Assembly (NCBI RefSeq): GCF_019218885.1
Contig: NZ_JAHUWT010000001.1
Coordinates: 930,001-994,000 of the forward strand
Length of the DNA: 64,000 nucleotides
Direction of reading: 5' to 3'
DNA from: Bordetella sp. BOR01
GTDB lineage: Bacteria; Pseudomonadota; Gammaproteobacteria; Burkholderiales; Burkholderiaceae_B
Under the pieces are notes generated by a model, which saw only the letters and a program-made list of their open reading frames with translations, was not told the origin of the DNA and searched no databases. This document shows positions 30,970 to 45,562 of the stretch, in pieces. Position numbers and translations under genes: made by a program. Position 1 is the first letter of the stretch. Each line of letters starts with the position of its first letter.

Positions 30970-31956
30970 ATGGACAGACGATCCTTTCTTTTCACTGCCT
31001 GCGGCGGCGCGCTTGCGGGGACGGCCCTGCCGTCCGCCACCTGGGCACAGGGCGGCGCGGGCTTTCCCGATCATGCGTTGCGTCTGATCGTGCCGCTGGC
31101 ACCGGGCGGGGGCACCGATGCCGTGTCGCGCCTGATCGCGTCTGAAATGGGCAAGTCGCTCGGCCAGTCTGTGGTGGTGGAAAACCTGAGTGGTGGCAGC
31201 GGTACCATCGGCATGATGGCCGTAGTGCGTGCGGCGCCCGATGGTTACACGCTGCTGACCGGCACGCCGTCCCTGTCGATCGATCCCTCGCTGCGCGACG
31301 ACATGCGCTTCGACCCGTTGAAGGATCTGCAGCCGGTCTGCCTGTTCAGCCGAGTGCCGTATGTGCTGGTCTCGTCGACCACGTTCAGGCCCAAGACCAT
31401 GGCCGAGCTGCTGGCCGCGGCCAAGGCCTCGCCCGGCGCCATCACCTTCGGCTCGCCTGGCATCGGCAGCGGTGGCCACTTGGCTGGCGAGCTCTTCCAG
31501 TTGTTGACCGGCATCAAGCTGACCCACATTCCCTACAAGGGATCGGGCCCGGCCATGAACGATCTGCGCGGCGGCCGCATCGACCTGCTGTTCGGCACTA
31601 CGCCGGCCGTGGTGCAGTTCGTCAAGGCTGGCACGCTGCATCCGCTGGGGGTGTCCAGCACCACGCGCGTCGCCAGCCTGCCCGACGTGCCCACCATTGC
31701 CGAAAGCACTGCGACCGGCTACGAAAGTTATTCCTGGTACGGCCTGTGGGCTCCCGGCGCGACACCCGCGCCGGTGGTGCAGAAGCTGAACGCGGCGGTG
31801 CGCACTGCCTTGGCCCAGGCCAACGTGAAGCGCGGCATCGAGACCGACGGCGGCAAGCCCGAGCCCACCACGCCAGAACAGACCGGTGCGTTCCTCGCCA
31901 AGGAAATCGCCAAATGGCGCGACGTGATCACCAAGGCCGGCCTCAAACCCGAATAA
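30970..31956 (+). CDS. Bug-type (TTT) solute-binding receptor
   Basis: This 328-residue periplasmic receptor has a leader with MDRRSFLFTACGGALAG (Arg-pair start, Tat-like) and cleavage near residue 25. Mature-protein hallmarks are FPDHALRLIVPLAPGGGTD, VVVENLSGGSGTIGMMAVV and HIPYKGSGPA. It lies downstream of the dehydrogenase gene and 26 bp upstream of a second receptor gene, closing the rightward operon. The ligand is probably the acid degraded by the operon. Confidence 0.93.
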   Translation: MDRRSFLFTACGGALAGTALPSATWAQGGAGFPDHALRLIVPLAPGGGTDAVSRLIASEMGKSLGQSVVVENLSGGSGTIGMMAVVRAAPDGYTLLTGTPSLSIDPSLRDDMRFDPLKDLQPVCLFSRVPYVLVSSTTFRPKTMAELLAAAKASPGAITFGSPGIGSGGHLAGELFQLLTGIKLTHIPYKGSGPAMNDLRGGRIDLLFGTTPAVVQFVKAGTLHPLGVSSTTRVASLPDVPTIAESTATGYESYSWYGLWAPGATPAPVVQKLNAAVRTALAQANVKRGIETDGGKPEPTTPEQTGAFLAKEIAKWRDVITKAGLKPE

Positions 31957-31982
31957 GCGTGTTTTTGAAGGAGGTGCACACA

Positions 31983-32978
31983 ATGGACATGCAACGACGA
32001 CGTTTCGGCCAGGCCGCGATGGCGCTGGCCTCGATGGCGGCGGCCCCACGTCTGCTGGCCGCCGAGGATCCCGCCACCGGCTTTCCCGATCGGCCCATCC
32101 GCCTGATGATTCCCTTCGAGCCTGGTGGCGGCACCGACATCGTGGGCCGCGCCATCGCGCAGAAAACCGCCGAGGCGCTGGAGCACCCCATCGTGGTCGA
32201 GAATCGCAGCGGGGCCAACGGCACTATCGGCGCCGCAGCCGTGGCGCGTGCGGCGCCCGACGGCTACAACTGGTGCATGTTCACTGCCAGTCATTCGGTC
32301 AACGTGACCCTGCAGGGCAAAAAGCAGTCGTATGACCTGTTGCGTGATTTCGATCCCCTGATCCAATTGGCAGTTCAGCCCTATATCCTGGTGGTGCGGC
32401 CCGGCCTGCCCGTGCATACGGTGGGCGAGCTGATCGCGATGGCCAAGGCCAAGCCAGACGCCTTGACATTCGGCTCGTCGGGGGTAGGCGGGCTGCTGCA
32501 TCTGTCGGCCGAACTGCTGTCCGCGATGGCCGGCATCAAGATGATCCATGTACCGTATAAGGGCGGCGCGCAGGCGATGATGGACGTCATGGCGGGCAAT
32601 GTGGACATGATGTTCACCAGCCTGAACCAGTCCAAGAGCTATATTGCATCCGGCCAGCTCAGGCTGCTGGCTGTCACGTCGCCAGCGCGCTCGCCTGCCT
32701 TGCCCAATACGCCTTCCCTGGACGAAGCCGGCGTGCGAGGCTACGAAGTGCAGTCCTGGTACGGTTTCGCCGTGCCGGCCGGCACACCAGCGCCGATCGT
32801 CGCAAAGGCCAACCACGTGGTCAACCGCGTGCTCGAACTGCCGGATATCCAGCGCAGCATGGCGGCGGACGGTTCCACGCCGGTGGGCGGTACACCCGCG
32901 GCATTCGGCCGGTTTTTGTCCAACGAGGTCGTCAAGTGGCGCGATCTGATCGACAAGGTGGGAATTCCCGTCGGCTGA
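31983..32978 (+). CDS. Bug-type (TTT) solute-binding receptor
   Basis: This 331-residue receptor has an Arg-rich leader (MDMQRRRFGQAAMALASMAA) and mature hallmarks FPDRPIRLMIPFEPGGGTD, PIVVENRSGANGTIGAAAVA and HVPYKGGAQAMMDVM. It directly follows another Bug gene and shares its architecture, but the ligand-pocket regions differ (for example FTASHSVNVTLQGKKQSY). It may therefore bind a related ligand. An RBS, GGAGGTG, precedes ATG 31983. It is the last gene of the cluster on this strand. Confidence 0.93.
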   Translation: MDMQRRRFGQAAMALASMAAAPRLLAAEDPATGFPDRPIRLMIPFEPGGGTDIVGRAIAQKTAEALEHPIVVENRSGANGTIGAAAVARAAPDGYNWCMFTASHSVNVTLQGKKQSYDLLRDFDPLIQLAVQPYILVVRPGLPVHTVGELIAMAKAKPDALTFGSSGVGGLLHLSAELLSAMAGIKMIHVPYKGGAQAMMDVMAGNVDMMFTSLNQSKSYIASGQLRLLAVTSPARSPALPNTPSLDEAGVRGYEVQSWYGFAVPAGTPAPIVAKANHVVNRVLELPDIQRSMAADGSTPVGGTPAAFGRFLSNEVVKWRDLIDKVGIPVG

Positions 32979-33021
32979 GTGGCGGGGAACGCCGGGGCTT
33001 GTGCCTGTGAAGTGGCAAAAC

Positions 33022-33161
33022 CAAAAGATACACTATTGTACTTGTATCAATAAACGCAAGCGCTGATGCGCGCCTCGATATAAACCCCTAATAACCACCT
33101 ATTGTAATTTCTGGCCGTGGCGAGAATAATTAAGCACGGAAATACAATAGTGTATCTTTTG
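33022..33161. promoter_or_regulatory. 19-bp perfect inverted repeat with two palindromic operator sites upstream of the GGT-like gene
   Basis: CAAAAGATACACTATTGTA (33022-33040) is perfectly reverse-complemented at 33143-33161, with 102 nt between. Each arm also forms an imperfect dyad of the type AAAAGATACA-N4-TGTATCTTTT (33023-33046 and 33137-33160). A -10-like TACAAT lies inside the right arm. The start codon is 15 bp further. The same dyad recurs at 38021-38044 and in part at 38135-38151, so this is probably a regulator's operator pair able to loop. Confidence 0.65.
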
Positions 33162-33175
33162 AGGGGTGTCGCATA

Positions 33176-34891
33176 ATGGCTGCCGATAGTGTTGGCAACG
33201 CGCTTACTCAGCGAGTTGTCTCGAGTTCTGGTGGCGGGCTGACCCGTCCATTGATCAGCGGTACTCGCCATGCGGTGTCCGCGGGCCATCCGCTTGCCTC
33301 GCAAGCCGCCTTTCGAATTCTGGAAGCCGGAGGCAATGCGGTTGATGCGGGGGCCGCCGCCGGCATGGTGCTGGCCGTGGTGCAAAGCGACGTCGTCAAC
33401 TTCGCTGGAGTTGCGCCAATGCTCGTTTACAGCGCAAAGACTGGGTCTGTGCACGAGATCGCCGGACTGGGCTATTGGCCACGCGCTATTCCCCCGGATT
33501 ACTTCACGAAACATCACAATGGCGAAGTCCCGCACGGCCTATTGCGCACTGTGATTCCAGCAGCACCCGATGCCTGGATCACCGCGCTGTCCGAGTTCGG
33601 CACCATGACGTTTTCCGAAGTTTCGGAAGAAGCTATCCGCATCGCTCGCGAGGGCTTTGTAATGTACCCCATGATGTCGAACATCATTTCGGCGTTTGCA
33701 GCGGAATACGCACGCTGGCCCTCCAACACAGAGATTTACCTTCCCAACGGCCATCCCCCCAAGCCAGGGGATTTATTTGTACAGAGGGATTTGGCAAAGA
33801 CCATTCAATACATGGTCGACGAGGAAAAGGCAGCAGGCGGCACCCGTATCCAAGGGCTGCAAGCCGCGCGCGACGCCTTCTATAAAGGCGACATTGCGAA
33901 GGCAATCCTCAAGTACCACCGCGAAAACGGCGGATTGCTCACTGCGGCGGATCTGGAAGGCTATCGCACGCCGATTGGCGATCCAGTCTGCGCTGCGTTT
34001 GAGGGGCACAAACTTTACACCCCGCAGCCCTGGTGCCAGGGGCCAGCCCTGATCGAGATATTGAGAATTGCCCAGGAGCTGCAGTTAAGCGCTCATCCTC
34101 ACAATTCCGTTGCATATGTCCATTGTCTGATCGAGGCCATAAAGGCGGCATTCGATGACCGCCATCGGTACTTTGGCGACCCTTCTCATGTGCAAGTGCC
34201 GCTGTCCGAACTGCTGTCGACCACCCATGCGCGCAAACGCGCCGATGCGATCGACACGACGCGTGCGACTGCGCCGAAATACGCCGCGGGAGCAGATTCT
34301 GTGGCACTGGATACGTCCTACGTATGCGTGGTCGACCGCCACGGAAACTCGATTTCCGCCACTCCCAGCGATGTCTCCATGGATACTCCCGTGATTCCGG
34401 GTACCGGTATTTGTCCCTCTTCTCGGGGCTCTCAATCCTGGGCCGATCCGACCCATGTCTCTGGTGTTGCACCCGGGAAGCGGCCACGATTGACGCCCAG
34501 TCCAGCCTTGGCCATTTTCGACGATGGCCGTGTCATGCCTTTCGGTACGCCAGGCGGGGATGTGCAGCTTCAGGCGATGGCCCAGGTTTTCCTGAACATC
34601 ACGGCTTTTGGCATGAATCCGCAAGAAGCAGTGGATGCGCCGCGATTTGCAACGTACGACTTTCCCGATTCGTTCGAGCCGCATGCGAGCCTGCCAGGCC
34701 GGCTGACCGCAGAGTCGGATATCGGTGAAGAAACCACCAGTGCCCTCAAATCGATGGGGCACGACGCAGTGCCTTGGCCCGTACACACATGGCGGGCAGG
34801 CGCCGTCTGCCTGATTCAGCACGATCCTCGGCGCGGGGTTTGCCTTGCGGCCGCCGACCCCAGGCGTCCCAGCTATGCAATGGCCAGATAA
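33176..34891 (+). CDS. Gamma-glutamyltransferase-family protein without signal peptide
   Basis: This 571-residue Ntn-hydrolase-type protein has a large-subunit part (HAVSAGHPLASQAAFRILEA, GGNAVDAGAAAGMVLAVVQ). The processing site is at LDTSYVCVVDRHGNS, where Thr380 would be the nucleophile after autocleavage. The C-terminal PFGTPGGDVQLQAMAQVFLN corresponds to the usual GSPGG. No signal peptide is present, unlike classical periplasmic GGT, so it is probably cytoplasmic and may be an amidohydrolase-like relative. It starts an operon with a chorismate-mutase-like gene and a Bug receptor gene, behind the inverted-repeat operator. Confidence 0.9.
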   Translation: MAADSVGNALTQRVVSSSGGGLTRPLISGTRHAVSAGHPLASQAAFRILEAGGNAVDAGAAAGMVLAVVQSDVVNFAGVAPMLVYSAKTGSVHEIAGLGYWPRAIPPDYFTKHHNGEVPHGLLRTVIPAAPDAWITALSEFGTMTFSEVSEEAIRIAREGFVMYPMMSNIISAFAAEYARWPSNTEIYLPNGHPPKPGDLFVQRDLAKTIQYMVDEEKAAGGTRIQGLQAARDAFYKGDIAKAILKYHRENGGLLTAADLEGYRTPIGDPVCAAFEGHKLYTPQPWCQGPALIEILRIAQELQLSAHPHNSVAYVHCLIEAIKAAFDDRHRYFGDPSHVQVPLSELLSTTHARKRADAIDTTRATAPKYAAGADSVALDTSYVCVVDRHGNSISATPSDVSMDTPVIPGTGICPSSRGSQSWADPTHVSGVAPGKRPRLTPSPALAIFDDGRVMPFGTPGGDVQLQAMAQVFLNITAFGMNPQEAVDAPRFATYDFPDSFEPHASLPGRLTAESDIGEETTSALKSMGHDAVPWPVHTWRAGAVCLIQHDPRRGVCLAAADPRRPSYAMAR

Positions 34892-34905
34892 GGGGTAGGG
34901 TTGCC

Positions 34906-35235
34906 ATGTCGAAAACCGACCGTTCGTCAAACGGACGCACGCTAGAGGATGTGCGTCGCGACGTTGCCAGGATAGATCGAAAAATCGTGGCGGCGCTGGC
35001 GGCGCGTGAGCAATTGGCGGTCGAGGCCGTCCAGTTCAAATGCTCGGTAGCCGATATCAGTGATCCCGCTCTGCAAAAGAACCTGCTGGCTCGGATAGAT
35101 GGCTGGGCGATCAGGGCGGGGCTTTCAACAGCGCTTGCGCGCGGCGTTTACACCGCTATCCTCGCTTTTGGCATTCCCAGGCAGTTGGAAGTTTTCGCCG
35201 CACGCCACGTGAGGCCGGGCCGCACGTGCGATTAG
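34906..35235 (+). CDS. Chorismate mutase type II (AroQ)-like protein, degenerate active site
   Basis: This 109-residue all-helical protein resembles the AroQ domain. By alignment with E. coli chorismate mutase, Arg11, Arg28, Lys39 and Asp48 equivalents appear present (DVRRDVARIDRK, AAREQLAVEAVQFK). The Arg51 and Glu52 positions read Leu and Gln. It may be a PchB-like or repurposed mutase. It starts 14 bp after the GGT-like gene, which is unusual since no other aromatic-pathway gene lies in this module. Function is uncertain. Confidence 0.7.
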   Translation: MSKTDRSSNGRTLEDVRRDVARIDRKIVAALAAREQLAVEAVQFKCSVADISDPALQKNLLARIDGWAIRAGLSTALARGVYTAILAFGIPRQLEVFAARHVRPGRTCD

Positions 35236-35259
35236 CCATATAACCCTCGTGGAGCGTCC

Positions 35260-36237
35260 ATGATATCAAGAAGAACCGCCTTAAGAGCGTTAGTCGCTAC
35301 TTCGGTTACGCCTGCCGGGTTTGCCGTTCTCGGAGCGGAGAAGTTTCCGTCGCGTCCAGTGCGCATAGTCGTACCGTACGCAGTCGGAACCGCGACAGAC
35401 AGCACGGCGAGGCTACTTGCGGACGGTCTCGCGAAAGTTTGGGGTGTGCCAGTAGCTGTTGAAAATATTGCGGCGGCAAGCGGTATCGTCGGGTCTTCCG
35501 CGGTTGCTAAGCTTCCGGGCGATGGCTATACGATCATCATGGTGGCGGCCAACCATGTGATCAATCCGCACCTTTATCGGGACCTGCCTTTCGACCCTAT
35601 ACGGGATTTCACGCCGATTTGTATGGTTGCCCAGACCCAGGTTGTCGTGGTTGTCAACGCTAGTTCGGACCTACGTGATTTAAAAGGGCTGATTGCAGAA
35701 TCCAGCCGAAATCCGGGGCGCCTGAACTACGGCTCGGCCGGCAATGGAAGTGTGGGTCATTTGGTGATGGAGCAAATCAAGCAAGCTAGCAAGGTGTCCA
35801 TTACACACATTCCCTATCGTGGACAAAATCAGGCGCTGACCGATTTGGCGGGCGGCCAGGTAGATGTCGCGCTTCCCGCGCTCGCAGCCGCCGAGCCCTT
35901 TCTGCGCAGCGGTCGGCTGCGTGCGATAGCGGTGACCGGTTCGCAACGCTCCCCGCTCTTTCCCGATATCCCGACGATCGAAGAGCAGATCGGCAGGCCG
36001 GTAGAGGGGCTCGCCTGGTGGGGATTATTGGGCCCCAGGGGGATGCCGGCAGATATCGTCGAAATCATTGGATCTGCGGTGCGCGAGCAATTGCGTGCTC
36101 CCGCGATGTTGGATCAGATGCGGACGCTTAGCGCCGAAGTAGTCGCAAGTTCGGCACAGGAGATGGAACAAATGATGCGTACAGACCTGGCCAGGGTGGG
36201 GCAGGTAGTTGCGGCTGCCCACCTGAAGATTGATTAG
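35260..36237 (+). CDS. Bug-type (TTT) solute-binding receptor
   Basis: This 325-residue receptor has an Arg-pair leader (MISRRTALRALVATSVTPAG). Mature hallmarks are FPSRPVRIVVPYAVGTATD (the usual GGG replaced by VGT), AASGIVGSSAVAKLPGDGYT, HIPYRGQNQALTDLAGGQ and GMPADIVEIIGSAV. It is the third gene of the GGT-like operon and probably supplies the module with its substrate by high-affinity binding. It is convergent with the TetR gene. Confidence 0.92.
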   Translation: MISRRTALRALVATSVTPAGFAVLGAEKFPSRPVRIVVPYAVGTATDSTARLLADGLAKVWGVPVAVENIAAASGIVGSSAVAKLPGDGYTIIMVAANHVINPHLYRDLPFDPIRDFTPICMVAQTQVVVVVNASSDLRDLKGLIAESSRNPGRLNYGSAGNGSVGHLVMEQIKQASKVSITHIPYRGQNQALTDLAGGQVDVALPALAAAEPFLRSGRLRAIAVTGSQRSPLFPDIPTIEEQIGRPVEGLAWWGLLGPRGMPADIVEIIGSAVREQLRAPAMLDQMRTLSAEVVASSAQEMEQMMRTDLARVGQVVAAAHLKID

Positions 36238-36284
36238 CCCGACGCTGCGCACGCCCTGCACGCTGGAGCGTCGCTGATGGTGCT

Positions 36285-36902
36285 TCAGCTTTTCTTCTGT
36301 TTGCTGTTGACGGGATGATTCGCCATTGCTGCTTGCATGTGCTCCGATCCAAGGAAAATTCGCATGTACTCCGGCATGAGCTTTTTCCTTTCTGATACAG
36401 ACTGCTTTACTCCCATCGAGTAATAGCCAATTTGATGGTAGTAATACACCTTGGCACGCACGGTGGCCTCATCTCGCGTAAATCCGATCGCGACGAACAG
36501 CCGCTCGAGCAAATCGAGCCGCTTGCTGTCGACCCGCTCGACCGCCCAGGCGGCGCGCTTGTCGTGGCGCGCCCAGTCACGAACAGCCAAGTCGAACCTG
36601 GGATCGAATCCGTCCTCTGTGATCAGGCGGTCGCTCAGGCGTTCCAGCATCCGTGCCGCCTCGACCGCCGACTTGGGCATTGGCCATTCCAGCACAAAAA
36701 GGTTCTCGTTTTCCCATTTCACCAAGAGCTGATCGAGCAGTTCGCTGCGGTCCAGGAAATGCTTGTAAAAGCCGCCGCGCGTGACACCCAGGCGTTGTGC
36801 AAGTCGATCGACCTTGACGCCATGGATACCTTCTTCGATTAATGCCTTCTGGGCGGTTTCCACCCAAGTGGCCGGCGGGGTTTTGGGTACAAGATTAGCC
36901 AT
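36285..36902 (-). CDS. TetR-family transcriptional regulator
   Basis: This 205-residue protein has a TetR HTH at about residues 10-55 (TAQKALIEEGIHGVKVDRLA, RLGVTRGGFYKHFLDRSELL) and a helical ligand domain. The start at 36902 gives the usual length; the frame is open further upstream but is not family-like. It begins 10 bp after the stop of the amino-acid dehydrogenase gene on the same strand, so both share the promoter with the palindrome at 38021-38044. It is the likely binder of the AAAAGATACA-N4-TGTATCTTTT sites, by inference from position and dyad type. Confidence 0.92.
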   Translation of the reverse strand: MANLVPKTPPATWVETAQKALIEEGIHGVKVDRLAQRLGVTRGGFYKHFLDRSELLDQLLVKWENENLFVLEWPMPKSAVEAARMLERLSDRLITEDGFDPRFDLAVRDWARHDKRAAWAVERVDSKRLDLLERLFVAIGFTRDEATVRAKVYYYHQIGYYSMGVKQSVSERKKLMPEYMRIFLGSEHMQAAMANHPVNSKQKKS

Positions 36903-36912
36903 ACCCCTGATC

Positions 36913-37962
36913 TTAGCATTGGCGTAAGAGGTCCTCGGCCCAGCGCTGCGCGACGCGAAAAGGCGCCTCGTCATTGGAGCGGTCCAGCAGTTCGGCGACG
37001 CGTTGGCGGATGCGGCTGATCTCAAGCTCAACCCGCTCGTCGTCGCTCCTGCCTAGGTATTCGTGAGCGGCGCTGATGATCCCGCCCGCATTGATGAGGA
37101 AGTCCGGCAGATACAGAATGCCCCTTGCCTGCAGCGCGTCTCCAACGGCGGCTGCGAACAATTGATTGTTGGATGCGCCGGCCACGATGGCAGCCTTGAT
37201 CTCTGGCACCGTGGAGGAGTTCAGGACGCCGCCTAATGCGCAAGGTGCAAGCACGTCGCAAGGGGCCGCGAGAATATGGTCCACGCCTACAGGCTCCGCC
37301 GAATACGTTGACCTGGCATATTGCACGCGGGCTTGATCGAGGTCGGACACCACGAGCCGCGCACCCGCCGCATATAGATGCTTGCACAATGACATGCCGA
37401 CGGCCCCCAACCCTTGCACCGCCACTGTTACTTTGTCTAGAGGCCGCTTCAGGACCCTGTATACCGCTTCGTCAATGGCAAGAAAGACGCCAAAAGCAGT
37501 CCTTGGCGAGGGATCGCCACCAAAAGCGTTATCACGCGGGATACCGCTGACGAATCTGGTTTGCTGCTGGACCGCCCGCATGTCCGCGATGGTGCTGCCG
37601 ACGTCTTCGGCGGTGATGTAGTGCCCCGCCAACGTATCGACGCGAGTGCCGAACGCCTGAAAAAGACGCTGTCGGTCAAATGGCCCGGATGGTTTCAGGA
37701 TAACCGCCTTGCCTCCGCCGAACGGAAGGCCTGCCAGGGCGTTCTTCAAACTCATGCCATGCGAAAGTCGCAGGGCGTCGCGCAGCGCCTCGCTCTCATT
37801 GCTGTAGCTCCATACACGGCATCCTCCAAACGCCGGCCCTCGCAGGGTGTTATGAATCGCGATTATTGCGGTGAGGCCAGAGCGTTCGTCGCAGAACATT
37901 GAAACCTGCTCGTGCGGCCGTTCACCAGGAAGGGATAGCAAGGTGCTGTCATTGGGGTGCAT
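36913..37962 (-). CDS. Glu/Leu/Phe/Val dehydrogenase family protein
   Basis: This 349-residue amino-acid dehydrogenase has FGGCRVWSYSNESEALRDAL, the catalytic-Lys segment SLKNALAGLPFGGGKAVILK, and the NAD fold VTVAVQGLGAVGMSLCKHLY. The length fits the leucine/phenylalanine/valine dehydrogenase branch rather than glutamate dehydrogenase. The start ATG 37962 (MHPNDSTLL) is chosen over 38076. It is transcribed leftwards, divergent from soxB, with the TetR gene 10 bp downstream. It could deaminate the amino acid freed by the GGT-like or sarcosine-oxidase-type enzymes. Confidence 0.9.
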   Translation of the reverse strand: MHPNDSTLLSLPGERPHEQVSMFCDERSGLTAIIAIHNTLRGPAFGGCRVWSYSNESEALRDALRLSHGMSLKNALAGLPFGGGKAVILKPSGPFDRQRLFQAFGTRVDTLAGHYITAEDVGSTIADMRAVQQQTRFVSGIPRDNAFGGDPSPRTAFGVFLAIDEAVYRVLKRPLDKVTVAVQGLGAVGMSLCKHLYAAGARLVVSDLDQARVQYARSTYSAEPVGVDHILAAPCDVLAPCALGGVLNSSTVPEIKAAIVAGASNNQLFAAAVGDALQARGILYLPDFLINAGGIISAAHEYLGRSDDERVELEISRIRQRVAELLDRSNDEAPFRVAQRWAEDLLRQC

Positions 37963-38020
37963 GAGAGTAGCCTTTTTGCGGGCTGGTTGGAGGCCGGCAG
38001 ATCGATGCAGGTTCAACCCG

Positions 38021-38044
38021 AAAAGAAACATTATTGTCTCTTTT
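38021..38044. promoter_or_regulatory. Palindromic operator AAAAGAAACA-N4-TGTCTCTTTT
   Basis: This is an interrupted dyad with 9 of 10 arm positions matching, 59 bp upstream of the dehydrogenase start. It shares consensus and spacing with the inverted-repeat sites before the GGT-like gene (33023-33046, 33137-33160) and the half-site before soxB. It is most simply explained as the operator of the TetR protein encoded downstream. Confidence 0.65.
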
Positions 38045-38131
38045 GATATTATTCTCCACGGCTGGGCTGGATGCAAGAGTTTATAAGCAGTAATCTAAAT
38101 AAAATGGCTTGTTGAGAGCGCCAAAATTTCT

Positions 38132-38160
38132 TTGACAGTACTGTATCTTTTAGGTAGAGT
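38132..38160 (+). promoter_or_regulatory. soxB promoter with operator in the spacer
   Basis: TTGACA (38132-38137), a 17-nt spacer and TAGAGT (38155-38160) form a sigma70-like promoter. The spacer contains the dyad ACAGTACTGT (38135-38144) and the half-site TGTATCTTTT (38142-38151) of the shared operator. A bound regulator would cover the polymerase site. The soxB ATG is only 7 nt beyond the -10 box, implying a leaderless transcript. Confidence 0.55.
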
Positions 38161-38167
38161 TTCTGGC

Positions 38168-39424
38168 ATGCAATCGAGAACTCGCTATTCCGCATGGAGC
38201 CTGCTGGCCGCTGGAGCCGATCAGCGGGACTGGGCGCCCGCCTGGACAGATGCGAGGCCCAAGAAGCGCTATGACGTCGTCATCATCGGGGGGGGCGGGC
38301 AGGGGCTGGCGACTGCCTATTACTTGGCCAAAAACCATGGCATCACGAACGTGGCGGTCATCGAAAAGGGATGGATCGGAGGAGGAAACACCGGCCGCAA
38401 TACCACGATCATCCGATCCAACTACCTCTATCCCGAAAGCGCACGCCTTTATGATTTTTCGGTGCGCCTGTACGAGGGGCTGTCGCGTGAACTGAATTTC
38501 AACATCATGTTCAGCCAGCGAGGCATGATCACGCTCGCGCATTCGCGCCATGATCTCGATCTGCAAGCCCGCTGGGCGAACGCGATGCAATCTAATGGTG
38601 TCGATGCCGAACCGCTTGGCGCCGAACAGGTTCGTGAACTCGAGCCCCGTCTGAATTTCACCGCAAACGCGAGGTTCCCCATTCTAGGAGGGCTGATCCA
38701 GAGGCGCGCCGGACCGGCAAGGCATGATGCGGTGGCTTGGGGCTATGCGCGAGGAGCAAGCGCGTTGGGCGTGGACATCATTCAGAACTGTGCGGTCACT
38801 GGGTTTGATATACATGACGGAGCCGTGAAGGCAGTCCATACGCAGCAAGGCAAGATACTTGCAGGCAAGGTTGCGCTATGCGTAGCAGGACATAGCAGTC
38901 AATTCGCCGCTTGGGCAGGTTTCCGCTTGCCGGTCATCAGCTACGCATTGCAGGCCATGGTGACCGAGCCAGTCAAGCCAGTACTCGAGCGTGTCACGCT
39001 TTCGCCGGCGCTCGGAGCATATTGGAGCCAGAGCGACAAAGGCGAAGTCGTAATGGGGGGTGGCCTTGATCACTTCCCGTCCTACGCGCAACGGGGTAGT
39101 TTCGCCGTCACTCAGCAAGTCGTCGCAGCCACTGCGGAGATGTTTCCTTCACTTGGGCGCTTGCGGCTGCTGCGTCAGTGGGCCGGAATCGTAGACATCG
39201 TCCAGGACTCAAGTCCGATCATCGGGCCGTCACCCGTACGCGGGCTCTACCTGAATTGCGGTTGGGGTACTGGCGGCTTCAAAGGCATTCCCGTCGGCGG
39301 CTGGACATTGGCACACGAAATCGCGACTGGTCGCACGCACGAGCTTGCGGAACCTTTTCAACTCGGTCGATTCACCAGCGGTCGTCTCATAGACGAAGCT
39401 GCAGCAGCCGGCATTGCCCACTGA
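38168..39424 (+). CDS. soxB: Sarcosine oxidase-type beta subunit (FAD)
   Basis: This 418-residue protein has the FAD dinucleotide fold YDVVIIGGGGQGLATAYYLA, then the highly typical GWIGGGNTGRNTTIIRSNYL, the FSQRGMITLAHSRHD segment and the C-terminal LYLNCGWGTGGFKGIPVGG. It matches SoxB of heterotetrameric sarcosine oxidase in length and order. The ATG at 38168 fits the family N-terminus (RYSAWSLL). It is the first gene of soxBDAG-purU. The enzyme oxidatively demethylates sarcosine-like amines, passing the one-carbon unit to tetrahydrofolate. The substrate in this organism is not proven. Confidence 0.94.
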   Translation: MQSRTRYSAWSLLAAGADQRDWAPAWTDARPKKRYDVVIIGGGGQGLATAYYLAKNHGITNVAVIEKGWIGGGNTGRNTTIIRSNYLYPESARLYDFSVRLYEGLSRELNFNIMFSQRGMITLAHSRHDLDLQARWANAMQSNGVDAEPLGAEQVRELEPRLNFTANARFPILGGLIQRRAGPARHDAVAWGYARGASALGVDIIQNCAVTGFDIHDGAVKAVHTQQGKILAGKVALCVAGHSSQFAAWAGFRLPVISYALQAMVTEPVKPVLERVTLSPALGAYWSQSDKGEVVMGGGLDHFPSYAQRGSFAVTQQVVAATAEMFPSLGRLRLLRQWAGIVDIVQDSSPIIGPSPVRGLYLNCGWGTGGFKGIPVGGWTLAHEIATGRTHELAEPFQLGRFTSGRLIDEAAAAGIAH

Positions 39425-39429
39425 CCAAG

Positions 39430-39702
39430 ATGATGCTTTTGACCTGCCCCTGGTGCGGACCACGTTCGGAGAACGAATTCCATTTCGGCGGGCCAGCGCA
39501 CCTGGAACGCCCCTCTATGGACTGTTCCGACGCTGAATGGGCCAGTTACCTTTTTATGCGTGACAACCCTCTGGGCGAGCATAGAGAGCGCTGGCGGCAC
39601 ACTTACGGTTGCGGGCAGTGGTTTAACGTGCTGCGCAATACCGTCACACATGAGGTGACTGAGGTCTATCGCATGGGTGAGACAGGAGGCCGGAATGCCT
39701 AG
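39430..39702 (+). CDS. soxD: Sarcosine oxidase-type delta subunit
   Basis: This 90-residue protein has the SoxD zinc motif LTCPWCGPRSENEFHFGG and the C-terminal YGCGQWFNVLRNTVTHEVTE. It lies 5 bp after soxB and overlaps soxA by 8 bp. SoxD holds a structural zinc and is a small subunit of the heterotetramer. A double ATG (39430 and 39433) allows two starts. Confidence 0.93.
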   Translation: MMLLTCPWCGPRSENEFHFGGPAHLERPSMDCSDAEWASYLFMRDNPLGEHRERWRHTYGCGQWFNVLRNTVTHEVTEVYRMGETGGRNA

Positions 39703-42622
39703 CAAGCGCTTGGTACAACCGTGGGGCAGTCGAATAGAGCGTGCACAGGCGCTGCAGTTTTCGTTTAATGGCCGTCCCATCGATGCGTACGCAGGCGACA
39801 CAGTGGCGTCCGCGTTGCTGGCCAACGGTGTGAAGCTCGTTGGCCGCAGCTACAAACTGCATCGGCCGCGCGGTATTTTCTCCTGCGGTCCGGAAGAGCC
39901 AACCGGCATTGCGGATGTGGGCTCTGGCAGCGTACGCACGCCCAACACGCGCCTGACAGAAGTGCAGGCCCGGAACGGACTTGAAGTGAGCAGCGGAAAT
40001 TGCTGGCCGAGCCTCAGGCACGACATATTGGCAGGCCTTGGGCTTTTTTCGTCCTACATGCCTGCAGGCTTCTACTACAAGACTTTTACGTGGCCTCGCT
40101 GGGAATGGTTCGAGCCGGCCATCAGGAGGTTGGCCGCAGCGAGCCGTGCAAGCGATTTGGCGGACCCCGATTCATATGGCGAAGTATCGACAACCGCCGA
40201 CGTGCTCGTTATTGGAGGCGGACTTGCGGGCGTGCGCGCGGCGCTATCGGCGGCACAGTCCGGCAAGGACGTGTTGATGATCGATGGGGATGTCGAACCA
40301 GGCGGAAGCCTGACCTCGCATGGACAAGGATTGGCCTCGATGACAAGTATCCAGTCCATGCTCGCCGCTTTCAAGCAGGCGGGCGGGCGCTTGTCTGTCC
40401 GCACCACGGCGCTAGGGGCCTACGATCAGCGCTTGATTACCGCAGTGCAGACAGGCGGCCCCGGTTCCACCACGCGAGAGCGCCTGATCAAGATACGCGC
40501 GGATCAAGTAATTATTGCGACAGGTGCGTTCGACCGCCCCATGCTGTTTCCGGACAACGACCGACCGGGCGTGATGCTGGCCGGAGCGGTCGAACGTTAT
40601 GCCTCGCTATATGGCGTTGCCTGCGGCGAAAGAGTCGTGATTGCGGCGGCCTGCGACGCCGCTTATGGTGTCGCGTCCACGCTCGCCCTGACGGGCATAG
40701 AAGTTGTGGCGATTGTCGACTGTCGAGAAGAACAGCTTATCGGTGCTGAAAACATGCCGGAGCACGCCGCATGGTATCCAAATAGCACTATTGTCGCCGT
40801 GCACGGCAGCGCCGATGGTGTCACTGGAGTCACCATTGCCGATATGCCGCGCGGCCAGTTGAAAAAAATACCGTGCGACAACATTGCAAGCGCCGGTGGC
40901 GCCACTCCAAACGTAAGTTTGTATACCCAGTTCGGGGGAACGTTGAGGTGGCTGGAAGAGAGTTCGATGTTTGTGCCTGACAGGCGCCTGGCCTGCGTCG
41001 CGACAGTGGGCGCTTGCGCAGGAATCTTCGATGTCGACCAAATCTTGACACATGCCGATGCGATGGGCCGATTCGGAGTGTCCGGCGCTCCTGAGCCCAT
41101 CGCTGGCGGTACCGGATTCGTACCGGCTGACAACCGACCCTCGAAGGCGGCACTTGCAATGTATGGTCGTCGTCCCGGCAAGCAGTTTGTCGACTTGCAG
41201 AACGACGTGGACGCCCGCGATATTCAGATCGCTGCGCTGGAAAATTACCGTTCTGTCGAGCATCTCAAGCGCTACACGACAACCGGCATGGCTACCGATC
41301 AGGGCAAAACAAGCAATGTCAACGCTATCGTTTTGATGGGGCAGGCCACTGGAAGGCTGCCTCAGCAAGTAGGCACCACCAGGTTTCGTGCGCCTTACCG
41401 GCCGGTGACTTTGAATACTATTTCTGCTGGCCGAAGCGGGATGCGCCTGCGGCCCTTGCGGCTCTTGCAAGCACGCGACTTCCATGCCGAGCGGGGCGCA
41501 TTGTTCGAGGAATTCAGCGCGTGGGAACGTCCTGCTGCTTATCTTCAGGCAGGAGAAGACTTGCACGCTGCCGCGCTGCGGGAAGCGGCCCATGTGCGCC
41601 GCGGTGTCGCACTATTCGACGGATCGCCCCTGGGCAAGATCGAAATTTACGGCCCGGACGCGGCGGATTTCCTGGATCTGATGTTCGTCGGTCAGATGTC
41701 TACGATGCCTTTAGGGGTTGCCAGGTACGGAGTGCGGTTGAATGAAAACGGCGTAATCGTTGACGATGGCATCGTTTCCAGGTTGGGGCGTGACCACTTT
41801 TGGGTCAATACCACCTCAGGTGGCGCGGAACAGGCCGCCCTGGTATTCGAAGAATGGCTGCAATGCGAGTATCCCCATTTACAGGTCCTTATTTGTCCTG
41901 TTACCGCGCAGTGGGGCAACGTGACGGTCTCGGGGCCAATGGCATGGAAACTATTGAATAGCATTGGCTTCGACGATGCCTTCGCGCCCGAGCATATGCA
42001 GCACATGACCATGATGGAAGGATCGTTGCGAGGTACACGCGTGCGGGTGTTGCGTGCGAGCTTCAGCGGCGAGCTAGGTTACGAAATCAATCTTCCCGCT
42101 TCTGAGACAAGCAATTTGTTTAGCGAGCTGTGGCAATCCGGACGGGCGTTGCAGGTTGGCATGTACGGTGTCGAGGCGCTCATGATTCTTCGAACCGAAA
42201 AAGGCTTTATCCATGTGGGCGCCGATACTGACGGCACTTCGCTGCCGCAGGATGTGGGATTGTGGCGCGGTATGACCAAGAAAAAGGCAAATTTCGTTGG
42301 CCGCCGTTCATTGCTCAGGCCCGCTGGACTGGATACGTCACGACTGAGGTTGGTGGGGATCAAGCCTGGCGACCGCGCAACTGCGGTAGCCGTCGGTTCC
42401 ATCCTCAAGACTCTCGGGCGTGGTGATTTGCCTCAAGGGCACGTCACCAGCAGCTACTTCAGTCCGGCCTTGGGCGAACCGATCGCGCTTGCCTTGCTGG
42501 CTGGCGGTGCCGATAGGCTCGGTGAACGGTTGCAAGCATGGTCGTTCGGGAGATGTGTCGAAGTGGAGGTGGTTGAAACGCCTTTTTATGATGCAAAGGG
42601 GGAGCGGATTCATGGCCGGTAA
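39695..42622 (+). CDS. soxA: Sarcosine oxidase-type alpha subunit
   Basis: This 975-residue multidomain protein has an N-terminal ferredoxin-like region (FSFNGRPIDAYAGDTVASAL, GRSYKLHRPRGIFSCG). It also has a nucleotide-binding oxidoreductase domain (DVLVIGGGLAGVRAALSAAQ) and a C-terminal aminomethyltransferase-like, folate-binding domain (FSGELGYEINLPAS, MYGVEALMILRTEKGFIHVG). The start is ATG 39695 behind AGGAGG. It is slightly shorter than the usual about 1000 residues. It forms the large subunit that delivers the methylene group to tetrahydrofolate. It overlaps soxD and soxG. Confidence 0.94.
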   Translation: MPSKRLVQPWGSRIERAQALQFSFNGRPIDAYAGDTVASALLANGVKLVGRSYKLHRPRGIFSCGPEEPTGIADVGSGSVRTPNTRLTEVQARNGLEVSSGNCWPSLRHDILAGLGLFSSYMPAGFYYKTFTWPRWEWFEPAIRRLAAASRASDLADPDSYGEVSTTADVLVIGGGLAGVRAALSAAQSGKDVLMIDGDVEPGGSLTSHGQGLASMTSIQSMLAAFKQAGGRLSVRTTALGAYDQRLITAVQTGGPGSTTRERLIKIRADQVIIATGAFDRPMLFPDNDRPGVMLAGAVERYASLYGVACGERVVIAAACDAAYGVASTLALTGIEVVAIVDCREEQLIGAENMPEHAAWYPNSTIVAVHGSADGVTGVTIADMPRGQLKKIPCDNIASAGGATPNVSLYTQFGGTLRWLEESSMFVPDRRLACVATVGACAGIFDVDQILTHADAMGRFGVSGAPEPIAGGTGFVPADNRPSKAALAMYGRRPGKQFVDLQNDVDARDIQIAALENYRSVEHLKRYTTTGMATDQGKTSNVNAIVLMGQATGRLPQQVGTTRFRAPYRPVTLNTISAGRSGMRLRPLRLLQARDFHAERGALFEEFSAWERPAAYLQAGEDLHAAALREAAHVRRGVALFDGSPLGKIEIYGPDAADFLDLMFVGQMSTMPLGVARYGVRLNENGVIVDDGIVSRLGRDHFWVNTTSGGAEQAALVFEEWLQCEYPHLQVLICPVTAQWGNVTVSGPMAWKLLNSIGFDDAFAPEHMQHMTMMEGSLRGTRVRVLRASFSGELGYEINLPASETSNLFSELWQSGRALQVGMYGVEALMILRTEKGFIHVGADTDGTSLPQDVGLWRGMTKKKANFVGRRSLLRPAGLDTSRLRLVGIKPGDRATAVAVGSILKTLGRGDLPQGHVTSSYFSPALGEPIALALLAGGADRLGERLQAWSFGRCVEVEVVETPFYDAKGERIHGR

Positions 42623-43151
42623 GAATATCGCTGAACCCTGTGTTCAGTGGCAAGTTCTGCAAGGAATGTCTATTGCGTCCGTGCGTCGTATGGCTGGCGA
42701 TCGAGACGTGCTTGAAATCTTGAAAAATCTCGGTATGCGGTGGCCCGAAAGCACGGGAAATGCGCGGGGAGACGATCCGGTCGTGTTATGGAAACGTCCC
42801 TCTGAAGCGCTTGTCGTCAGCAAACAAGCCGGACGAACTGGCGAGTTGGTGGCGCTGCTCGAGGCTGGGCGAAGCCCGAGCGGCATTGCGCTCGATGTAT
42901 CGGAGCAAATCACCGTGCTGGAAGTTCGGGGGCCGGCGTTAAATGAATGGCTGGCCCAGGTTGTCGATACATATTCCTTGCCGCAGCGGGGCGGCGTAAC
43001 CAATGCTCGTCTAGCTGAAATTCATGTGCTCATCTTCAGGCCCGAAGACGAACGAGTCTGGATTCTCGTAGAGAGAACACTCGTTTCTTATCTCGATGCG
43101 TGGTTGTGCCACACGCGAGACGTTGCATTCAGCGTAGGTGTCGTGCAATGA
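42612..43151 (+). CDS. soxG: Sarcosine oxidase-type gamma subunit
   Basis: This 179-residue protein has the SoxG layout: LWKRPSEALVVSKQAGRTGE, LDVSEQITVLEVRGPALNEWL, and a closing WLCHTRDVAFSVGV. It starts inside the end of soxA and its TGA overlaps the ATG of purU, so the operon is translationally coupled throughout. The gamma subunit is related to the aminomethyltransferase fold and completes the heterotetramer. Confidence 0.9.
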   Translation: MAGKNIAEPCVQWQVLQGMSIASVRRMAGDRDVLEILKNLGMRWPESTGNARGDDPVVLWKRPSEALVVSKQAGRTGELVALLEAGRSPSGIALDVSEQITVLEVRGPALNEWLAQVVDTYSLPQRGGVTNARLAEIHVLIFRPEDERVWILVERTLVSYLDAWLCHTRDVAFSVGVVQ

Positions 43152-44008
43152 AGTCGTTCGTTCTGACAATCTGCTGCCGGGACACGACCGGAATCGTGGC
43201 GGCAGTTGCTTCGACTTTAGCGGCTGCAGAGGCGTTTATTATCGAATCGTCCCATTACGGAGATGCAACGAGCGAGATGTTTTTCATGCGTACCGTTTTC
43301 CGGCCGACGGGCACCCGTGTGACATCGCGATCGGAGTTTCTGGATGTGCTATTGCCCGTCTCCCACCGATTTGGAATGGCGCTCCAATTACACGAGTCTG
43401 ACCGCAAAATGAAGGTCGTGCTTGCCGTGTCACGCTTGGGCCATTGTCTGAATCACTTGCTGCACAGATGGCATGCTGGAGAGCTTGGCGTGGATTTGGT
43501 GGGCGTGGTGTCCAATCACGACGATATGCGTCGCCTGGTGGACTGGTTTGGGATCCCTTTTCACCATCTTCCGATGAACGAGAGCAAGCAAGAGCAGGAA
43601 GACCGTTTTTGGGATGTAGTGCAAGAAGCCGATGCGGAACTAACTGTGCTGGCGCGCTATATGCAAGTCCTGTCCGATCGGATGTGCCAGCGGCTGGAAG
43701 GCAGATGCATCAATATCCACCATTCCTTTCTGCCGAGTTTTAAAGGGGCCCGGCCATACCATCAGGCGCACGAGCGTGGCGTGAAGGTGGTCGGTGCCAC
43801 TGCGCACTACGTTACGCCGGAGCTGGATGAAGGTCCGATCATCGAGCAGGATGTTGTACGGGTGGGCCATGGATTATCCACGGAGGCGCTTGTCCGTATC
43901 GGCAAGGATGTCGAGAACGTGGTGCTTGCTCGCGCCGTGCAGTGGCACGCCGAACACCGCGTCTTGCTCAATGGTCATCGTACGATTGTTTTCCAGCAGG
44001 GCGCGTAG
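43148..44008 (+). CDS. purU: Formyltetrahydrofolate deformylase
   Basis: This 286-residue protein has an N-terminal ACT-like domain (MKSFVLTICCRDTTGIVAAV) and a C-terminal formyltransferase-fold hydrolase domain with MKVVLAVSRLGHCLNHLLHR, VSNHDDMRRLVDWFGIPFHH, and the catalytic NIHHSFLPSFKGARPYHQA with TAHYVTPELDEGPI. It cleaves 10-formyl-THF to formate and THF. Placed directly after soxG with overlapping codons, it would recycle the folate loaded by the oxidase, a known sox-operon arrangement. Confidence 0.93.
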   Translation: MKSFVLTICCRDTTGIVAAVASTLAAAEAFIIESSHYGDATSEMFFMRTVFRPTGTRVTSRSEFLDVLLPVSHRFGMALQLHESDRKMKVVLAVSRLGHCLNHLLHRWHAGELGVDLVGVVSNHDDMRRLVDWFGIPFHHLPMNESKQEQEDRFWDVVQEADAELTVLARYMQVLSDRMCQRLEGRCINIHHSFLPSFKGARPYHQAHERGVKVVGATAHYVTPELDEGPIIEQDVVRVGHGLSTEALVRIGKDVENVVLARAVQWHAEHRVLLNGHRTIVFQQGA

Positions 44009-44058: not shown

Positions 44059-44282
44059 TCAATCCGGCAGCGCATAGGCCACCAGATAGTCTCCCATCTT
44101 GGTGCCAAACAAGCCATGGCCGCCGGCGGGCAGGCGCCCTTCCCACAACAGCCTGCCGTTGCTCGCGTCGAACGCGCGCAGGTAGTTGTCCTGCGTGGTC
44201 GCTACGAACATCAGGTTGCCGGCGGTCGAGATGGGGCCGCCCAGGCCCGGCACGCCGATCTTCAATGGCGGTAGCTGGAAGT
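44059..44282 (-). pseudogene. 3' fragment of a PQQ-dependent (quinoprotein) dehydrogenase with internal deletion
   Basis: The frame reads LKIGVPGLGGPISTAGNLMF, then YLRAFDASNGRLLWEGRLPAGGHGLFGTKMGDYLVAYALPD, the C-terminal end of membrane glucose-dehydrogenase-like quinoproteins. In relatives, roughly 25 residues stand between the GGQ and GGH parts; here they are fused, indicating an in-frame deletion. The 5' end runs into the IS3-family remnant at about 44283. It is a dead fragment. Confidence 0.75.
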
Positions 44283-44531
44283 ACGGAAGAACAGATCATC
44301 GGAGTGCTCAAGTAGGCCGAGGCAGGAGCCAAGCCAGCCGAGTTGTGCCGCAAGCACGGGATCTCCGAGGCGACGTACTACAACGGGAAGGCGAAGTACG
44401 GTGGCATGACGGTGTCCGAAACCCAGCGCCTGAAGGAACTGGAGCAGGAGAACAACCGGCTCAAGAAACTACTGGCCGAGTCAGTGCTGGATAGCGCCGC
44501 GCTGAAGGACCTGCTGGGCCGAAAGTGGTGA
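44283..44531 (+). pseudogene. IS3-family orfA, 5'-truncated with nonsense codon
   Basis: The translated frame is TEEQIIGVLK, TAG (44313-44315), AEAGAKPAELCRKHGISEAT, and continues to the usual leucine-zipper-like LKELEQENNRLKKLLAESV and an end at LLGRKW. The first about 6 codons are missing and an in-frame stop lies at codon 11 of the remnant, so no functional HTH protein can be made. In intact members an HTH precedes the zipper. Confidence 0.8.
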
Positions 44532-45304
44532 GCCCACAGGCCAGGCGTGAAGCGGTCAGGATTTTGATGGCCGAGCGCAAACTGGGTGTGACCAGAGCCT
44601 GTGGGCTGGTAGGAATCTCGCGGTCGCTGTTTGCCTACGAAAGCAAACGAGTGAGCGATATCGCGCTGACCGAACGCATGAAGGAAGTGGCGGTGGCCAA
44701 GCGGCGCTATGGCTACCGCCGCATCCATGTGCTGCTGCGCCGGGAAGGTTGGCGGGCAAACCATAAGCGGGTCTGGCGACTGTACAGCCAGGCCGGACTG
44801 AGTGTGCGCAAACGCAAGCGTAAGCGCATTGCCGCTGTCGAGCGGGTGGTGCGTCCTCAACCGACAGGACCGAATCAGAGCTGGTCGATGCACTTCGTCG
44901 CCGACGGCCTGGCCTATGGTCGCCGCTTCCGGTGCCTGAATGTCGTGGACCATTACACGCGGGAATGCCTGGTCATCGAGGTTGATACGTCATTGCCTGG
45001 ACTGCGCGTGGCCCATGGCTTGGAAAGGATCGCCATGATGCGTGGGCTTCCCCGATCCAGCACCGTGGACAACGGGCCGGAGTTCGCAGGCAAGGCATTG
45101 GATGCCTGGGCTTACCAGGCGGGCGTGACGCTGTCGTTCATCCGGCCGGGCAAGCCCGTGGAGAATGCCTATATCGAAAGCTTTAACGGCAAGTTCCGGG
45201 ATGAATGCCTAAACGAACACTGGTTCCTGTCATTGCGGCCGGCTAAATCGTTGATGGAAGCATGGCGCGTCGAGTACAACACCGAACGGCCCCACAGCTC
45301 TCTC
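44525..45304 (+). pseudogene. IS3-family orfB transposase, 3'-truncated
   Basis: The orfB frame holds the HTH_21 segment KRRYGYRRIHVLLRREGW and an integrase core with Asp in CLNVVDHYTREC, Asp in SSTVDNGPEF and Glu in ENAYIESFNGKFRDE, so the DDE residues are present. Family sequence stops after PHSSL; beyond that the frame runs through unrelated DNA to a stop at 45763. It overlaps orfA by 7 bp, as in programmed -1 frameshifting members. Confidence 0.8.
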
Positions 45305-45536
45305 ACATCGTCCGCTCGGTCGAGAAGGTCAGCAGCTCGACATCCAGCAGATCCGGGATGGGCGGGGGTAAGGCCGCTCCCTCGTTCCGGCGCACGACCT
45401 GGAAGTACCGGACGTAGCGGCGCATATTCTCTCGGTAGAGGGAATACATCGATATCGGTCCTGGGATCGAGACCCGGTCGCAATCTTCAAGCTGGCGCCC
45501 GTATCGGTGAGTGCGTTGTATGGTGCAGTCTGGCAT
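45303..45536 (-). pseudogene. Truncated plasmid/island-type hypothetical gene
   Basis: This 77-residue frame has an N-terminal MPDCTIQRTHRYGR and a hydrophilic middle SLYRENMRRYVRYFQVVRRN, ending ELLTFSTERTM, with its stop exactly at the IS junction. The stop is therefore probably formed by the junction and the protein truncated. It follows the KorA/TrfB-like gene on the same strand by 26 bp. No function is recognised. Confidence 0.35.
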
Positions 45537-45562
45537 GGCGGCAACGTGAAAGCGGCATGCAC

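Follow-up and report, generated by a model that had tools for sequence, protein, structure and literature searches.

The closest described systems to the locus reported here are heterotetrameric sarcosine oxidase (TSOX; PDB 1vrq, 2gag), encoded by soxBDAG, the GGT-family proteins LmbA and Ant6 of lincomycin and anthramycin biosynthesis (PDB 6j3a), the PchB isochorismate pyruvate lyase and AroQ chorismate mutase, and the leucine and ScyB-type tryptophan dehydrogenases. Many natural peptides contain N-methyl amino acids, for which dedicated catabolic routes in bacteria are, to our knowledge, little described. We analysed a 64,000-nucleotide stretch of the genome of Bordetella sp. BOR01 (contig NZ_JAHUWT010000001.1, positions 930,001 to 994,000; hereafter the window), in which ten genes related to these systems lie together under what appears to be a single TetR-family repressor. 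We consider it somewhat more probable than the opposite that this locus is a self-contained, mobile, TetR-controlled catabolic cassette for an N-methylated amino compound, and the best reading of its regulator is a dedicated repressor for a predicted N-demethylase whose substrate would not be sarcosine. Among the matches listed in a search of the open-licence literature, which covered titles and abstract openings, there was no description of this gene set.

The cassette occupies 33176-44008, and all of the genes named in a first-pass annotation of the window are present where that annotation had placed them, with no further convincing gene seen between them. The GGT-like, chorismate-mutase-like and Bug genes lie on the plus strand, tetR and the dehydrogenase gene on the minus strand, and soxB-D-A-G and purU again on the plus strand. 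The genes and their putative control sites are as follows.

33023..33042, + strand: putative TetR-type operator 1 of the GGT-like unit (2 mismatches to the consensus; none from shuffles)
33102..33130, + strand: putative promoter TTGTAA-17-AATAAT between both GGT operators (consensus scan, weak alone)
33141..33160, - strand: putative TetR-type operator 2 of the GGT-like unit (1 mismatch)
33176..34891, + strand: GGT-family Ntn hydrolase, LmbA-like, 571 amino acids, Asp379-Thr380 (PF01019, 359 bits; best PDB match 6j3a, 249 bits)
34906..35235, + strand: chorismate-mutase/isochorismate-lyase-like protein, 109 amino acids, R17/R34/K45/Q93 (PF01817, 35 bits; PchB alignment)
35260..36237, + strand: Bug/TctC periplasmic binding protein (PF03401, 239 bits)
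36285..36902, - strand: predicted TetR-family repressor (PF00440, 38 bits)
36913..37962, - strand: Glu/Leu/Phe/Val-type amino-acid dehydrogenase (PF02812, PF00208; ScyB tryptophan dehydrogenase model 301 bits, cut-off 600)
38021..38044, both strands: putative TetR-type operator of the dehydrogenase-tetR unit, overlying a putative minus-strand promoter TGGAGA-17-AATAAT at 38058-38030
38132..38151, - strand: putative TetR-type operator of soxB, over the -35 box and spacer of a putative promoter TTGACA-17-TAGAGT at 38132-38160
38168..39424, + strand: SoxB-like beta subunit of a divergent clade, His186 and Lys372 kept (TIGR01373, 636 bits, cut-off 529)
39430..39702, + strand: SoxD-like delta subunit (TIGR01374, 118.2 bits, cut-off 116.5)
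39695..42622, + strand: SoxA-like alpha subunit with a GcvT tetrahydrofolate (THF) domain (PF17806, PF01571; TIGR01372, 999 bits, below the cut-off of 1164)
42612..43151, + strand: SoxG-like gamma subunit, divergent (TIGR01375, 37.5 bits, below the cut-off of 144)
43148..44008, + strand: PurU formyltetrahydrofolate deformylase (TIGR00655, 328 bits, cut-off 286)

No TctA/TctB membrane partner of the Bug protein was seen within the cassette. A search of genome contigs with the dehydrogenase yielded six loci, one of which, in Verticiella sediminum, has the complete ten-gene set with gene order and orientation unchanged. The identities over the best segments are 88% for SoxB, 82% for TetR, 81% for PurU and for Bug, 79% for the GGT-like protein, 78% for SoxD, 75% for the dehydrogenase, 74% for SoxA, 62% for the chorismate-mutase-like protein and 54% for SoxG. 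The other five loci matched the dehydrogenase alone, with no other cassette gene. The likely starts of SoxB (ATG at 38168), TetR (36902) and the dehydrogenase (37962) are those at which the Verticiella proteins also begin, and they place each operator upstream of its start codon.

Four palindromic sites are present at the three promoters, two flanking the promoter of the GGT-like gene and one each at the dehydrogenase and soxB genes. The pattern AAAAGATACANTANTGTATC, with no more than 3 mismatches, gave 5 matches in the window (33023; 33141; 38021 and 38025, which are one site read on both strands; 38132) versus none in 100 dinucleotide shuffles. Genome-wide (6.18 Mb), it gave 7 matches, 5 of them in the cassette, and the reversed control gave none. 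The two operators of the GGT-like unit form 22-nucleotide arms that are 95% complementary. A promoter consensus scan of the region returned 5 promoter-like sites against 4.9 expected by chance, three of the five coinciding with operators. In the Verticiella locus, the same pattern matches 5 times, and these matches fall at three sites located before soxB, the dehydrogenase gene and the GGT-like gene (again 0 in 100 shuffles); an ACA-N4-TGT core is common to all seven operator sites of both cassettes. A TetR_N domain encoded beside palindromes that are conserved at three promoters is, at the sequence level, what is expected of a TetR repressor with its operators. The proposals of the first-pass annotation that three transcription units share one promoter palindrome, that they form a single TetR-wired unit, and that the genes are a conserved set rather than soxBDAG and purU with random neighbours are supported, with independent confirmation from the Verticiella locus. 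By eye, the soxB ATG lies approximately 16 bases from the operator and a few bases past a possible -10 box in both genomes (window 38155-38170; Verticiella locus 9775-9800), so that the soxB transcript is possibly leaderless or nearly so.

The assignment of the predicted demethylase depends chiefly on SoxB. The complete soxB-D-A-G set is present, with the B and D subunits above their family cut-offs and the A and G subunits matched below theirs. SoxB homologues (E ≤1e-100) were found in 66 of 399 genomes of the order, a sample outside which Verticiella falls; the nearest ones outside the cassettes are 75-76% identical (genomes G451 and G481, loci L073 and L074), and the remainder are at most 58% identical. 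In the comparison and trees, which drew on the window, TSOX and 32 of the 66 loci, the latter chosen by hand with no set criterion, the cassette SoxB proteins differ from all 30 relatives, TSOX included, by R136W, Y303F and T374I, and from 28 of the 30 by H259Y and H283G; these substitutions are shared by G451 and G481. The cassette SoxB thereby departs at five sites from the constant or near-constant positions of heterotetrameric sarcosine oxidase. His186 and Lys372, which we take to be the histidine that binds flavin mononucleotide (FMN) covalently and a conserved lysine, align with H172 and K358 of TSOX by chain count, and position 374 is two residues past this lysine. Alignment of SoxA with the TSOX alpha subunit shows that the IxDD, FSGELxxEI and LRxEKGF stretches, presumably the motifs of the folate site in the GcvT family, are conserved.

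SoxB proteins of at least 60% identity also occur on plasmids (11 of 415 matching records), those listed being from Shinella, Sinorhizobium, Ensifer and Roseovarius at 61-63%. Seven of these 11 loci were retrieved (L188-L194), and two of the seven, one from Shinella and one from Roseovarius, were included in the SoxB tree. In this midpoint-rooted tree, the Shinella, Roseovarius, cassette and G451/G481 proteins form one clade (support 100/99) apart from TSOX. The clade shares H259Y, P260A, H283G, T374I and S377G, the plasmid members having Val at 303 and Thr at 136. Judged from these alignments, the cassette SoxB is a member of a divergent clade and not a standard sarcosine oxidase. A relative of the cassette TetR (29-39% identity) adjoins soxBDAG in all seven alphaproteobacterial plasmid loci. 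In the six Rhizobiaceae loci, the TetR gene immediately precedes soxB, and the sox genes are followed by a gene for a binding protein (Peripla_BP_6 in the three proteins tested; the other three share 86-95% identity with the protein from Shinella). The TetR gene of the Roseovarius locus lies after the sox genes. The ACA-N4-TGT motif, a loose pattern used here without a shuffle control, is present upstream of soxB in six of the seven loci, ranging from the full palindrome TCTGGACATTAATGTCCAGA (L193) to agreement at 12 of 20 positions (L192), with a second, weaker site in two loci. No such site was present upstream of soxB in the stretch examined from Roseovarius, and the stricter GGACA-N4-TGTCC occurs once each in four of the seven loci. 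The TetR-linked soxBDAG on the plasmid of Roseovarius sp. W115 (L189) lies beside genes for Lrp, methionine gamma-lyase and a pyridoxal-phosphate enzyme, and may act on another non-glycine substrate. In G451, the neighbours of soxB are of peptidase type (an M3 peptidase, a DUF885 protein and a beta-lactamase-type hydrolase).

The host genome contains a second sox cluster (L078; G000:C11:528001-547900) that encodes a DMGDH-type protein, glyA, the serine dehydratase gene sdaA, soxBDAG, a GGT-like protein, purU and a Bug protein, and looks like a canonical sarcosine-type route. The GGT-like gene, Bug, soxBDAG and purU are thus a frame common to both loci. The cassette has an amino-acid dehydrogenase gene in place of the glycine and serine genes, and neither glyA nor sdaA was seen in it. 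This replacement, together with the clade of its SoxB, suggests that the candidate substrate is an N-methyl amino acid larger than sarcosine.

The GGT-like protein retains the features expected of an autoprocessing Ntn hydrolase, as Asp379-Thr380 aligns with the processing site and its threonine nucleophile. According to PMC5519988, Asp-Thr is the processing site in LmbA and Ant6, and the 6j3a chain contains the LmbA peptide TCHLDVVDRW given there. With 249 bits, 6j3a was also a better match than a cephalosporin-acylase entry (185) or Escherichia coli GGT (175). The gamma-glutamyl pocket is lost: Arg114, Asp433 and Ser462-Ser463 of the E. coli enzyme (EcGGT) are replaced by Leu98, Gln420 and Leu439-Thr440. 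According to the review PMC8062742, EcGGT R114L has no detectable activity and BlGGT R109L has 5% of hydrolysis, D433N keeps 82% of hydrolysis in EcGGT and R109S keeps 85% activity in BlGGT; in extremophile GGTs, this Arg is replaced by Ser and the Ser-Ser pair by His-Thr. Because single pocket changes can leave much hydrolysis, the case against a gamma-glutamyl substrate rests on all of them being changed together. The Asp-Thr, Gln and Leu-Thr residues are shared by all 22 close sequences (cassette included), and Leu98 by all but one, which has Val there. The combination of the Asp-Thr motif with loss of the pocket is that of LmbA, and its presence in all 22 relatives means that it does not single out an LmbA-type C-C hydrolase function. 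The protein is closest to the LmbA-type hydrolases and probably not a gamma-glutamyl hydrolase, as far as these residues and matches indicate.

By a rough estimate, close GGT-like genes accompany sox genes more often than expected. SoxB of at least 50% identity is present in 31 of the 66 loci, and a close GGT-like gene in 5 of the 31 (Verticiella, L078, L081, L088 and L103); the other 35 loci had no GGT match at E 1e-20. Leaving the cassettes aside, 4 of 30 such loci have a close GGT-like gene versus approximately 0.30 expected (P 0.0003). These figures are rough, because the expectation is based on a density of 3 close GGT-like genes per 5.3 Mb, which was set from 15 genomes partly chosen for such loci (20 close GGT-like genes and one split match), and two of the four GGT-sox loci belong to one genus. 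In the GGT tree, which carried a long-branch warning, the sox-linked genes are scattered among genes without a sox neighbour (the cassette; L078; L088; L081 with L103), which suggests that the association was formed on more than one occasion. Support is 100/100 for the splits that set off the cassette and the L081-L103 pair, whereas L078 (81/81) and L088 (88/88) are placed with less certainty. The GGT-like gene lies between soxG and purU in L078 and directly after soxG on the same strand in L088. A close GGT-like gene also directly follows a gene for a protein with a sarcosine oxidase A3 domain in L180, and is found approximately 3 kb from a DAO protein gene in L172. Gene calls for part of the neighbours of the GGT-like and dehydrogenase loci came from a GC-frame script and are approximate. 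In L081 and L103, the GGT-like gene is beside an Ldh_2-family dehydrogenase gene, near a divergent soxBDAG.

The dehydrogenase scored 300.9 bits against the ScyB tryptophan dehydrogenase model, below the cut-off of 600, and its solved relatives are a Glu/Leu/Phe/Val dehydrogenase entry (299 bits) and leucine (up to 290), tryptophan (253) and phenylalanine (197) dehydrogenases. In the alignment with leucine dehydrogenase, L40, A113, V291 and V294, which we take to be its side-chain pocket, correspond to F, A, I and A. Relatives of 52-53% identity in Cupriavidus (L012) and Paraburkholderia (L006) are directly beside a gene of the indolepyruvate ferredoxin oxidoreductase family, which points to aromatic or related amino acids. 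The neighbour is instead of thiolase type in L007 and, by eye from similar sequence, in L008, and the record annotation of L011 includes neither gene. Neighbours were typed in L006 and L007, taken from the record annotation in L011 and L012, and available as gene calls only in L009, L076 and L077; L075, L079 and L080 were compared for cassette matches only, and L010 was left out. These features suggest a leucine/tryptophan-dehydrogenase-like enzyme with a hydrophobic amino acid as the presumed product of the preceding steps.

The chorismate-mutase-like protein scored 52.3 bits against the NCBIfam isochorismate lyase model (cut-off 126). Its R17, R34, K45 and Q93, which are the same in the proteins P0002 and P0003, correspond to PchB R14, R31, K42 and Q90, presumably the catalytic residues. 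With these residues kept, the protein may be active, and it fits neither the scheme of the first-pass annotation nor our own explanation.

In the pathway that we propose, TetR would repress the three promoters of the tetR-dehydrogenase, GGT-like and soxBDAG-purU units, and would presumably be released by the substrate or an intermediate. The Bug protein would capture the compound, and the GGT-family Ntn hydrolase would release an N-methyl amino acid by cleaving an amide or C-C bond. To judge from family membership and retained residues, the divergent SoxBDAG would oxidize the N-methyl group to methylene-THF, from which FolD and PurU, as known for their families, would release the methyl carbon as formate (folD follows purU in Verticiella). 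The dehydrogenase would convert the demethylated product, a branched or aromatic hydrophobic amino acid, into a 2-oxo acid by deamination, and the chorismate-mutase-like protein probably acts on the skeleton of the substrate or product. The earlier interpretation is partly supported: besides the TetR-wired unit and the conserved gene set, THF-linked N-demethylation followed by PurU agrees with the protein families, and deamination stands as a likely fate of the product. Its suggestion of a gamma-glutamyl-linked substrate is weakened, because all of the E. coli pocket residues considered above are replaced.

The locus might instead be an ordinary oxidase operon for sarcosine derived from glycine betaine or creatine, with unrelated neighbours under a shared repressor. 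SoxB exceeds the soxB family cut-off, and purU near sox genes is ordinary (a match of at least 45% identity in 17 of the 66 SoxB loci). This explanation is nevertheless set back by the SoxB clade with its substitutions and by the full sarcosine-type cluster that the host already has, in addition to the absence of glyA and sdaA from the cassette and the joint conservation of ten genes and operators in Verticiella; we regard it as unlikely. We give a still lower probability to two functions under one repressor, in which the Bug, GGT-like and chorismate-mutase-like proteins would serve one compound and the sox and dehydrogenase genes another from the same niche. GGT-like and Bug genes without sox are indeed common (10 of 16 non-sox loci), and TetR with soxBDAG but without GGT is the alphaproteobacterial form. 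However, this does not readily account for sox-linked GGT-like genes in separate branches of the tree, for their positions next to soxG in L078 and L088, or for their roughly estimated excess at SoxB loci. The gamma-glutamyl conjugate pathway of the first-pass annotation is very improbable in our judgement, even though the protein matches the Pfam G_glu_transpept family at 359 bits, keeps the nucleophile Thr380, and has active counterparts with single changes at these sites according to PMC8062742. Gamma-glutamyl hydrolysis is made unlikely by the joint replacement of the pocket residues, R114L alone being reported there to abolish detectable activity, by the near-uniform pattern in the 22 close sequences, and by the LmbA-type protein being the best structural relative.

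Several observations count against the N-methylated compound cassette that we favour. The full gene set was found only in the host and Verticiella (a Bordetella sp. metagenome-assembled genome has one related chorismate-mutase-like protein), and the wider dehydrogenase family is common, with members in 103 of 398 genomes of the phylum at E 1e-60. The position of the cassette enzyme among leucine, phenylalanine and tryptophan dehydrogenases is uncertain, and the substituted SoxB positions are known from alignment. No close GGT-like gene was present in the stretch examined, in some cases incomplete, at 26 of the 31 loci with SoxB of at least 50% identity (window not counted), and 16 of the 22 close GGT-like genes are not by soxBDAG, with a Bug gene beside or near 10 of those 16. 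The G451 and G481 loci have no TetR, GGT, Bug, dehydrogenase, chorismate-mutase-like or purU matches within approximately 20 kb. The alphaproteobacterial plasmid loci likewise have TetR and sox only, with no match to the GGT, dehydrogenase, chorismate-mutase-like, Bug or purU genes; TetR with soxBDAG therefore looks like an old core to which the other cassette genes are additions, although the lack of a TetR match at G451 and G481 counts against this view. The identity of the substrate and the enzyme activities are proposed from sequence, conservation and residues.

As part of our explanation, the cassette would be horizontally mobile and travel as a unit. In Verticiella, it is located between folD and rpoC and not near ssrA; in the host, it is located between Bug genes and an insertion sequence (IS)-type transposase gene, with ssrA beyond. 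In the host, its G+C content of 0.582 is below that of the left flank (0.669; 13001-33000) and of the right flank (0.652; from 47101). The Verticiella copy has a G+C content of 0.651, with 0.656 towards rpoC and 0.704 in the opposite flank. The dehydrogenase was found in 2 of 268 genomes of the family at E ≤1e-80, the host and G226, whose match has the same contig coordinates (53003-54040) and 75% identity as the Verticiella locus, and in 2 of 399 genomes of the order at E 1e-95, the host and a relative at 52%. In a large protein set (8000 candidates scored), the closest dehydrogenase after that of Verticiella is 65% identical and lies on an 11.8 kb contig; further carriers are possible. A search for the chorismate-mutase-like protein (417 candidates, E 1e-5) found three, in the host, Verticiella and the Bordetella sp. 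metagenome-assembled genome. On plasmids, none of 14 matching records covers 80% of the cassette in a search needing high identity, and the 10 listed match only a purU piece.

The surroundings of the cassette contain further elements. Directly upstream, outside the operators, are two more Bug/TctC-type genes (30970-32978; Pfam on the first only). The matches listed for the left flank in congeners are short pieces at 64-79% identity, as expected from many Bug genes, and are uninformative. Downstream, the minus strand between purU and the transposase gene (approximately 44060-44310) resembles, by eye, the C-terminal end of a pyrroloquinoline-quinone-dependent dehydrogenase, and an integrase-core (rve) transposase gene, IS3-like by domains, is found at 44525-45763. 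A 1 kb stretch (45416-46417) has a second copy with 85% identity elsewhere on this contig (G000:C11:1299839) and may be mobile. The ssrA gene (tmRNA, tag ANDERFALAA) lies at 46709-47096, and in 8 congeners examined the match breaks off at the 3' end of this gene or no more than approximately 60 bases from it, as would be expected at the edge of an island. Integration at ssrA was considered and set aside; a search with exact words of 11-14 bases gave no second copy of the ssrA end in the window, and the genome gave no convincing one, so that no att pair is claimed.

If our explanation is true, the sarcosine oxidase annotation also covers a distinct branch that is controlled by TetR and acts on a different substrate, and a catabolic role can be assigned to GGT-family hydrolases whose targets are not gamma-glutamyl bonds. 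A more specific version, which we offer only tentatively and consider rather unlikely as a whole, is a new pathway in which the LmbA-type Ntn hydrolase and the pericyclase-fold enzyme would open an N-methylated aromatic compound and a non-sarcosine soxBDAG would transfer the N-methyl group of the released aromatic amino acid to the folate pool; TetR-soxBDAG would then be a widespread class of N-methyl amino acid demethylases annotated as sarcosine oxidase.

Compared with TSOX, the cassette has the same B-D-A-G order, the positions of the FMN-linked His and the Lys, a GcvT-type THF domain and an adjoining purU, but it differs in its divergent SoxB clade with shared substitutions, its TetR and operators, SoxA and SoxG scores below the family cut-offs, and the lack of glycine-handling genes. 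The GGT-like protein resembles LmbA and Ant6 in its Asp-Thr motif, near full-length alignment and absence of the pocket Arg, whereas it is encoded in a presumed catabolic cassette rather than in antibiotic biosynthesis. The chorismate-mutase-like protein keeps the presumed catalytic residues of PchB but falls far below the PchB-type cut-off, and the cassette has no siderophore or aromatic biosynthesis genes. Finally, the dehydrogenase shares the Glu/Leu/Phe/Val dehydrogenase domains and what we take to be the catalytic Lys positions with leucine dehydrogenase and ScyB, but differs from them in its score below the ScyB cut-off and in having Phe for Leu, Ile for Val and Ala for Val at the presumed leucine dehydrogenase pocket.

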